IMG/VR virus record: IMGVR_UViG_3300023180_000492
Coordinates: 1-20,899 of that record
Source of the DNA: a virus
DNA: 20,899 nucleotides
Direction: 5' to 3' (one strand)
The notes under the pieces: generated by a model
The model's input: the letters and a program-made list of their open reading frames with translations, nothing else
The model's database searches: none
What the model was told of the DNA's origin: nothing
Shown here: positions 1,538 to 2,033 of the stretch, in pieces
Position numbering within the stretch: position 1 is the stretch's first letter
Layout of the letters: every line of letters starts with the position of its first letter
Program-made: the position numbers and the translations under genes

Positions 1538-1566
1538 TTGTCAAAGCATACATAGTATGGTATAAT
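1538..1566 (+). promoter_or_regulatory. Strong sigma70-type promoter for the riboswitch transcript
   Basis: TTGTCA (1538-1543), a 17-base spacer and TATAAT (1561-1566), with TG one base before the -10 box (extended -10). The predicted start, about 1573, falls exactly at the first base of the riboswitch. Confidence 0.8.
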
Positions 1567-1573
1567 AACCATA

Positions 1574-1629
1574 CGTTCATCCCGCTCTCGGGCGGGACGC
1601 AAGTAAGTCGCGGAACGGAGCGTTCATCC
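1574..1629 (+). ncRNA. Glutamine-II (Downstream-peptide) riboswitch
   Basis: The transcript start is followed by CGTTCATCCCGC, then GCGGGACGCAAGTAAGTCGC, then GGAACGGAGCGTTCATCC. This matches my recollection of the Downstream-peptide/glnA RNA motif, which binds L-glutamine in marine cyanobacteria and their phages. Visible pairing: CGTTC (1574-1578) with GAACG (1613-1617), and TCCCGC (1580-1585) with GCGGGA (1592-1597). The Shine-Dalgarno GGAG (1617-1620) lies 10 bases before the ATG at 1631 and can pair with CTC in the first hairpin loop, a pseudoknot that would hide it. A second CGTTC (1621-1625) can pair with the same GAACG, giving an alternative hairpin. Glutamine binding would then set translation of the next gene. 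The class is well supported; the direction of switching is inferred from the family. Confidence 0.85.
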
Positions 1630-1630
1630 T

Positions 1631-1825
1631 ATGCTTTCATTAGCACTCATCTTTTTTAGTCATGTCCCAGTGGAGAATTATCTTCGCTGTGAAGACTTCA
1701 ATTGGTTGAGAGAAGGACTGGAAGAGACAACTCTTTTCACTCCTTTTGAGAAGGCTGATATTCTCATCCATTGGATGGAACATACAGACCCTCAATGTTT
1801 TGAAGCACAGGACGCAAACGACTGA
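1631..1825 (+). CDS. Riboswitch-controlled small acidic protein
   Basis: 64 residues, starting one base after the riboswitch. The N-terminus is hydrophobic (LSLALIFFSHVPV), too short to be sure of a signal or membrane helix; the remainder is acidic with Cys, Trp and His (EDFNWLREGLEE, ILIHWMEHTDPQCFEAQDAND). Its place directly under a glutamine-II riboswitch is the chief clue: in cyanobacteria such switches control glutamine-synthetase inactivating factors (IF17) or unassigned short peptides. Unlike inactivating factors, which are basic, this protein is acidic, so it is not obviously one. A role in host nitrogen metabolism is inference. The DUF4278-like gene follows after 43 bases with its own ribosome site. 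Confidence 0.75.
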   Translation: MLSLALIFFSHVPVENYLRCEDFNWLREGLEETTLFTPFEKADILIHWMEHTDPQCFEAQDAND

Positions 1826-1868
1826 AGGAACGGGGATTAATCACCCTACTCTTTCAGGAGACAAACTC

Positions 1869-2033
1869 ATGAACACCCTAAATCTCATCCGTAATCAGAT
1901 CAAGAAGCAAGCAGCTCTTCACGATGCTCAGATTGCTGTCACCTCTTACCGTGGTGTCCGCTATGAGTGCCAGCAAGGTGCTGAGGAAGTACATGGTACT
2001 TTCTGCTACAGAGGTCACACTTATAACAAGTGA
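1869..2033 (+). CDS. DUF4278-like small protein
   Basis: 54 residues. The ATG at 1869 has AGGAGA 8 bases upstream, so the longer in-frame opening from 1746 is not used. A helical N-terminus (LIRNQIKKQAALHDAQ) precedes two Tyr-Arg-Gly elements, SYRGVRYE (26-33) and CYRGHTY (46-52). The YRG pattern is typical of DUF4278, a short beta domain frequent in cyanobacteria and cyanophages, without a known function. It lies in the glutamine-riboswitch transcript, one base before a second YRG protein, suggesting they work together or arose by duplication. Family call is from pattern only. Confidence 0.68.
   Translation: MNTLNLIRNQIKKQAALHDAQIAVTSYRGVRYECQQGAEEVHGTFCYRGHTYNK

Follow-up and report, generated by a model that had tools for sequence, protein, structure and literature searches.

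A phage RNA element with the predicted layout of two interlocked glutamine aptamers and a protein gene inside it

In ribosome-mediated attenuators and leader peptides, the translation of a small open reading frame (ORF) decides how the RNA folds, and in self-splicing introns with ORFs in their loops, protein genes are carried inside a folded RNA. The closest described relatives of the RNA analyzed here are the glutamine riboswitches. According to a review (PMC6316151), both type-I and type-II glutamine riboswitches activate on glutamine in cyanobacteria, glutamine aptamers are mainly located upstream of DUF4278 genes in these bacteria, and the N-terminal part of the glutamine synthetase inactivating factor IF17 corresponds to DUF4278. 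Tandem arrangements of glnA RNAs have been described (PMC2864571), and small ORFs are known to follow Downstream-peptide RNAs. Moreover, glutamine riboswitches in cyanophages and one linked to tmRNA in a methylophage have been published (PMC9964418, PMC9602691, and PMC9004378). The glnA riboswitch annotated in S-CREM1 (PMC9964418; OP535465) is the gene-less form of the present element; it was annotated as one 99-base glnA element, and neither the inner aptamer nor gene-bearing relatives are described in the accessible text. Searches of the accessible open-licence literature found no description of riboswitch aptamers that enclose a gene or interlock with each other, and nothing usable was found in the transcription literature on Syn9.

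The window, i.e., the whole stretch of DNA analyzed, was a 20,899-base virus record (IMG/VR IMGVR_UViG_3300023180_000492, positions 1 to 20,899). A sequence-only reading of this DNA had proposed a phage-encoded glutamine riboswitch of the Downstream-peptide type, with a 64-residue gene right after it, and had suggested a covariance-model search as a check. When the whole window was compared with Rfam, no family was found at its gathering score. Under relaxed limits, both glutamine families were matched below gathering: the best match was Glutamine-II (RF01704) with 28.5 bits at 1571–1624 (E 6e-5, cut-off 33), and Glutamine-I (RF01739) gave 25.2 bits at 1572–1621, where 35 bits were needed. The core pattern of glutamine-riboswitch-like RNA matched once in the window (expected 0.00) and, together with the Rfam matches, supports the assignment to the glutamine-riboswitch class. 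However, judged from the sequence, the RNA at 1571–1624 represents the left part of a larger element, 1574–1833, and not the whole of it. A repeat of nine bases, CGTTCATCC, stands shortly before the start codon (1621–1629), and the 3′ part of the aptamer, GGACGCAAACGACTGAAGGAACGG at 1810–1833, overlaps the last codons and the stop codon of the gene. This 24-base part gave a single match in the window with up to three mismatches allowed, and the complete pattern 1574–1833 also matched once, 0.00 matches being expected in either case. Since the 3′ part lies at the end of the 64-residue gene (1631–1825), the gene is placed inside the RNA element and not after it. Accordingly, a glutamine-riboswitch-like RNA does exist where it had been seen, but it is not a type-II leader, as the outer layout is that of type I.

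The outer aptamer has the P1 CGUUC/GAACG, the P2 hairpin, the AAGUA/GAA segments, the P3, and the long-range pair of Glutamine-I (RF01739), which shares the downstream DUF4278 gene as well. All strands of the type-I three-way junction P1/P2/P3 with its AAGUA/GAA segments are present in 1574–1833, and these segments were unchanged in 90/90 rows of the gene-bearing alignment, except R1824. Unlike in Glutamine-I, the P3 contains a whole second aptamer, and the P2 loops hold genes. With Glutamine-II (RF01704), the element has in common the occurrence in marine cyanobacteria and phages, small ORFs nearby, and the ligand-contact letters; in contrast to it, the ORF lies inside the aptamer, and the H-type pseudoknot formed with a P2 flanking GGAACG was not found, with at most CGC/GCG seen there by inspection. 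Instead, the strands needed for that pseudoknot form the inner P1 and P3, both of which covary. The inner aptamer is circularly permuted, with the order GGAACG-loop-CGUUCA-P2-CGC, closed by P3 and with the helices kept. As in tandem riboswitches, two aptamers for one ligand precede one gene, but here they would be interlocked by strand exchange and share a helix rather than stand side by side. A single type-II leader aptamer followed by the gene was ruled out by the pairing changes and by the 3′ part inside the gene end. At the level of sequence comparison, the architecture was thus shown to be that of two interlocked glutamine aptamers sharing P3, the outer one of type-I layout and the inner one circularly permuted. 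The coordinates are collected in Table 1.

Table 1. Positions of the predicted features in the window.
Feature	Position	Strand	Support
Sigma-70-like promoter, TTGTCA-17-TATAAT with extended TG	1538–1566	+	11/12 consensus letters
Palindrome TATGGTATAATAACCATA around the −10 box	1556–1573		Inverted repeat common in upstream stretches
Whole interlocked double glutamine aptamer, gene inside	1574–1833	+	Whole-pattern match, helices supported by covariation
Outer P1, 5′ strand, pairing with 1828–1832	1574–1578	+	100% paired in 90 and 91 rows, invariant
Outer P2 hairpin	1580–1597	+	Covarying pairs; second gene here in 70 other elements
P3, 5′ strand AGUCG, pairing with CGACU 1819–1823, common to both aptamers	1606–1610	+	Compensatory changes
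Inner P1 hairpin GAACG-GAG-CGUUC of the circularly permuted inner aptamer	1613–1625 (strands 1613–1617 and 1621–1625)	+	Double changes, none one-sided
Inner P2, 5′ strand, pairing with 1809–1812, adjoining the start codon	1627–1630	+	Several pair types
Nested gene, 64 aa, hydrophobic start, two cysteines, filling the inner P2 loop	1631–1825	+	ORF, phrog_13397 match
Inner P2, 3′ strand	1809–1812	+	Same support as 1627–1630
Double-aptamer 3′ part	1810–1833	+	Single match, expected 0.00
Within the 3′ part: inner CGC; P3; stop codon; GAA	1813–1815; 1819–1823; 1823–1825; 1824–1826		
Within the 3′ part: outer GGAACG; long-range G	1827–1832; 1833		
Long-range pairs, outer and inner	1600:1833 and 1618:1815		
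AGGAG ribosome-binding site of the downstream gene	1856–1860	+	GGAG in 309/339 downstream leaders listed
Downstream gene, 54 aa, two YRG motifs, DUF4278-like, basic	1869–2033	+	DUF4278 20.4 bits

Relatives were collected by pattern scans of viral contigs, which gave at least 355 distinct elements among the matches listed, including named phage stretches. These comprised 104 gene-less elements, 181 with an inner gene, 69 with inner and outer genes, and 1 with an outer gene only (L066:6504–6830), proportions that are not natural frequencies since two scan patterns required a gene-sized insert. What led to the outer genes was the absence of a nearby upstream CGTTCA in 80 elements; most of these have it approximately 200 bases further up, and another gene, which comes after it, ends at the outer CGC. 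A further 13 matches were set aside: in 11 the outer 5′ arm was not recognized, with 8 of these lying close to the start of a contig, and in 2 the inner hairpin was missing. Eleven named phage stretches, picked from the match lists and not a random sample, were opened, and all 11 contained the double element. Nested genes were present in eight, namely, S-WAM2, Syn9, P-SSM7, S-TIM5, S-SKS1, S-RIM8 A.HR1, S-RIM32, and S-SCSM1, and the gene-less ones were S-CREM1, ACG-2014f, and an S-PM2 deletion mutant. In Syn9, gp196 is the outer, gp197 the inner, and gp198 the downstream gene; S-TIM5 has both nested genes, and in S-WAM2 the annotated start of the nested gene is later than the start found here.

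Several other features were observed among the relatives. One contig (L152) carries a gene-bearing and a gene-less element. Variants of a near-identical hairpin, ATTCGCTATTCGCAAATAGCGAAT, were found in the outer P2 of L005, L065, L076, and L097 and in the inner P2 of L039, L054, L056, and L127, which suggests that this hairpin is recurrent or mobile. Ten loci, e.g., L015 and L073, were without a second CGTTCA. Nine of them look like plain type-I glutamine aptamers; after the aptamer, a GGAAAC...GTTTCC hairpin surrounds the region where small genes start, and several of these genes visibly have a YRG motif. Such loci are likely the ancestral single form. When bacterial genomes were scanned with the junction GGAACGGAKCGTTCATC, at least 119 stretches were obtained, approximately 60 being expected by chance (estimate), and no cyanobacterial title was present among the 80 listed.

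The nested ORF at 1631–1825 was indeed found to encode an acidic small protein (pI 4.31), as had been proposed. The protein matched phrog_13397 (E 9.7e-42), to which no function is assigned in that resource, and no Pfam family was matched. Its predicted structure has two main helices, 20–32 and 38–49 (pLDDT 82.1). The median dN/dS was 0.162 among 29 inner ORFs of 64 aa and 0.11–0.29 across ten length groups, three of which had fewer than 10 pairs, and about half or more of the differences between nested genes were at third positions. Purifying selection on the nested proteins was thereby shown at the codon level. All nested proteins listed have at least two cysteines, and a hydrophobic start was present in 93% of the inner and 100% of the outer ones by a simple index. 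Moreover, a profile comparison of the inner with the outer proteins showed them to be related (hhalign probability 92.2, E 5.8e-7).

Across the gene, the four pairs of the inner P2 form in 72 of the 73 distinct elements from the first scan, and the remaining case is a parsing artefact. The types were TCCC/GGGA (43), TCCT/AGGA (12), TCCT/GGGA (7), TCTC/GGGA (5), CCCC/GGGG (3), TCTA/TAGA (1), and TCCA/AGGA (1). The next three positions, the usual place of the start codon, were paired in 60, 35, and 36 of the 73, i.e., less regularly than P2. Across the outer gene, the first three pairs of the outer P2 were kept in 70/70 elements and the fourth in 44, compared with 29.7 in shuffles. In 239 of the 248 inner genes listed, the stop codon is at the same place, formed by the U of P3 together with the next two bases, RA; most inner proteins therefore end in DAND, DAHD, or similar. 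In the window, the stop UGA consists of the last base of P3 and the GA of the GAA segment. In 6/248 inner genes, including that of S-RIM32, the stop comes 15 bases earlier and the RNA is still kept, which argues for a constraint on the RNA itself. The claim of a ribosome site inside the fold did not hold beyond the window: GGAG is present at 1617–1620 but is not conserved in the relatives, which have GGAT, GGTTCC, and others in that place. As no steady Shine–Dalgarno site was found, translation of the nested gene is only predicted.

The reading that we favor, with somewhat more confidence than doubt, is that an interlocked double glutamine aptamer with a gene inside would act as an either-or switch. 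L-glutamine would be the ligand at one or both sites. The folded element would bury the start of the nested gene, which lies between the inner hairpin and P2, and would turn this gene off. Ribosomes moving from 1631 to 1825 would occupy strands of the two aptamers and keep these from closing. Since a ribosome at the nested start or stop covers both aptamers, glutamine and translation should compete, so that the nested and downstream genes would respond in opposite directions. The downstream DUF4278 gene would be favored by the folded form, in analogy with the activation of such genes by glutamine switches in cyanobacteria. Low glutamine would then lead to the nested gene and high glutamine to the DUF4278 gene, and each state would be self-reinforcing. 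A wider reading is put forward more tentatively: the RNA may be a glutamine sensor with two strand-interlocked sites and with hairpins that serve as gene slots, giving a bistable choice between small two-cysteine proteins and a DUF4278 regulator during infection. As part of the same joint claim, a single RNA may combine the roles of sensor, of messenger for one or two nested proteins, and of leader for a third protein. As in attenuators, translation of a small ORF should decide the RNA fold; unlike in attenuators, a ligand-binding aptamer encloses the ORF, whose protein product is under selection. Compared with introns bearing ORFs, the RNA here is a sensor instead of a ribozyme, and the helices of its fold overlap with start and stop codons.

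The nested genes might instead be passengers, the double aptamer controlling only the DUF4278 gene while the P2 loops tolerate independently translated small genes. This would fit the 104 gene-less elements among the 355 listed, which have the same helices and the same downstream gene, and the lack of a steady ribosome site at the nested genes. However, the nested genes start and stop at fixed places in the aptamer (239/248 stops), a placement not required of free passengers, and the fold must be disturbed by a ribosome at the start or the stop. We therefore consider independent passengers unlikely, although they are the strongest competitor of the either-or switch.

The downstream gene was examined in the same elements. 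An ORF of at least 30 residues was within reach downstream in 339 of the 355 elements listed, and the YRG motif was present in 338 of the 339. The protein in the window has a pI of 9.14. It matched DUF4278 (PF14105) with 20.4 bits (E 6.9e-4), which is under the gathering score of 25.3, and is accordingly called DUF4278-like, not a member. Among 47 diverse relatives, 45 matched DUF4278 at E ≤ 0.01 (best 1.7e-7). By these sequence matches, a DUF4278-type gene was shown to be the constant downstream companion of the element. The sequence-only reading had contrasted its acidic protein with the basic IF17. The nested protein is indeed acidic, unlike IF17, but the wrong gene had been compared, since the basic DUF4278-like gene is the one at 1869–2033; this protein shares only the DUF4278-like part with IF17, and the nested protein has no Pfam match. 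No solved structures were found for the downstream protein. After the downstream gene, at 2035–2202, comes another small ORF, in which a YRGVTY motif is present (DUF4278 16.8 bits, below cut-off). In approximately 55 of the 339 elements (e.g., L007, L034, and L086), 56–67 bases lie between the outer GGAACG and the downstream start, compared with the usual 34 or so. These long leaders have an extra GGATC..GAAA..GAGAAGGTT hairpin, and no Rfam family passed its cut-off on four such loci.

Glutamine might also turn both genes on, if the folded element presented the nested start as is thought for type-II switches. Activation by both types of glutamine switch in cyanobacteria, as stated in PMC6316151, agrees with this, but in the folded state the inner hairpin and P2 flank the nested start, and GGAG, where it exists at all, lies within the hairpin loop. 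Joint activation is thus regarded as improbable.

The ligand was considered from the positions equivalent to the glutamine contacts in type-II and type-I crystal structures (PMC6698751). These were unchanged at both sites in 90/90 rows, a conservation partly imposed by the search patterns and anchors, more at the outer than at the inner site. One inner long-range base differed in one of the 90 rows. In later scan patterns the inner hairpin was left free, and the core was still present in 355 of the 357 elements listed. The fold might be kept while one or both sites no longer sense glutamine, having another ligand or a purely structural role. In line with this, the inner junction differs from known glutamine aptamers, being without the AAGUA/GAA segments of the type-I aptamer; the unchanged contact positions and a downstream gene of the kind that glutamine switches control argue against it, and we hold a non-sensing fold to be very improbable.

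The strands CGUUC and GGAACG are common to the outer and inner copies, so that the sequence would permit tandem as well as interlocked pairing. Consequently, the pairing was judged from base changes. Among the 355 elements listed, the closing pair of the inner P1 was G-C in 338 and C-G in 17, with no mixed pair; in the 90-row alignment it was G-C in 77 and C-G in 13, with none broken. Under tandem pairing, the same 13/90 rows are broken at both P1 helices, while the interlocked pairing keeps 90/90. The nested proteins of the 17 C-G elements were varied, and a spread of the inner C-G form by recombination is possible. In 91 gene-less elements, the inner long-range pair was G-C in 85, C-G in 4, U-G in 1, and other in 1, and tandem pairing would leave long-range pairs unpaired in 6 and 7 of the 91. 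The outer long-range pair has one swap (S-CREM1), which agrees with the interlocked pairing. The outer P1 is invariant in the 90 and 91 rows and is therefore without covariation of its own; its position follows from the next-level changes seen in the inner copy.

P3 consists of the two linkers paired with each other. Its first pair in the 91 gene-less elements was A-U in 54, G-C in 29, G-U in 4, and other in 4, and in an earlier set it was formed in 98/99, compared with a shuffled mean of 93.5. Position 3 of P3 was unpaired in 62/91 gene-less and 18/90 gene-bearing rows, and position 5, with the column as assigned, in 24/91 gene-less rows. In a long-linker class (e.g., P-SSM7, L013, and L022), both linkers are AGCCGACU, which is self-pairing with A-C mismatches at positions 3 and 6; A-C mismatches in P3 recur in other sequence classes and may be functional. 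A P4 stem after the element, seen in 239/353 compared with 54% in shuffles, was dropped.

Over the whole element, 35 double-change cells were counted in the gene-bearing set (6.4 in shuffles) and 89 in the gene-less set (27.1 in shuffles), counts that are not corrected for relatedness or recombination. The paired fraction was 99.0% (gene-bearing) and 95.4% (gene-less), compared with 28–61% for slid versions. RNAalifold found the outer P1, outer P2, inner P1, and inner P2 of the gene-less set unaided, and the Rfam type-I model spanned the outer aptamer in 3/5 gene-less loci scanned, with passing scores of 39.6–43.6 bits. A covariance model (R1) from the 91 gene-less elements gave 31.6 bits for the left part of the window and, unfiltered, 9.3 bits for the right part separately, as the gene-sized insert is not bridged by covariance models of the R1 or Rfam type. 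When the gene was cut out and minimum-energy folding was applied to six elements, the window, L002, L021, and L097 showed the outer P1 and the inner hairpin, L032 showed the inner hairpin without the outer P1, and L106 showed a tandem fold. The folding energy without ligand was −91.3 kcal/mol for the proposed fold and −102.5 kcal/mol for the unconstrained one, and no clear change at the downstream ribosome site was seen in minimum-energy folding. Two ordinary tandem aptamers, i.e., one at 1574–1617 before the gene and a second one split by it, would be allowed by the identical strands in most elements, by local formation of the first aptamer during transcription before the 3′ part exists, by the one gene-removed sequence of six that folds so, and by the precedent of tandem glnA RNAs (PMC2864571), but as a final fold they are contradicted by the inner double changes and the broken P1 and long-range pairs, leave P3 without a role, and are given the least credence of all.

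The near-ideal promoter noted earlier was confirmed by its match to the consensus and by the relatives, where a TATAAT-like box was present in 292 and TTGAC in 214 of the 347 upstream stretches listed. By the scanner, 1.7 promoter-like sites are expected by chance in such a stretch, and the transcription start predicted from the promoter is near 1573. The −10 box lies within a palindrome, TATGGTATAATAACCATA in the window and GGTCTATAATAGACC and TGTGTTAGTATTAACACA at other loci; the letters differ between loci and the symmetry is kept. Palindrome arms of at least 6 bp were present in 209/317 upstream stretches, compared with 5.8% of shuffles. The palindrome may be an operator or a hairpin shielding the aptamer in read-through RNA.

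The element is common, its left part being matched in 432 of 50,697 phage records. As the gene-bearing form in the window was missed by the family models, others may be hidden. If the favored either-or reading is true, the element shows protein genes enclosed by a ligand-binding aptamer whose own helices contain their start and stop codons, together with two aptamers that share one helix by strand exchange. Whether T4-like cyanophages read the nitrogen status of the host becomes testable in known isolates such as Syn9, P-SSM7, S-RIM8, and S-WAM2.
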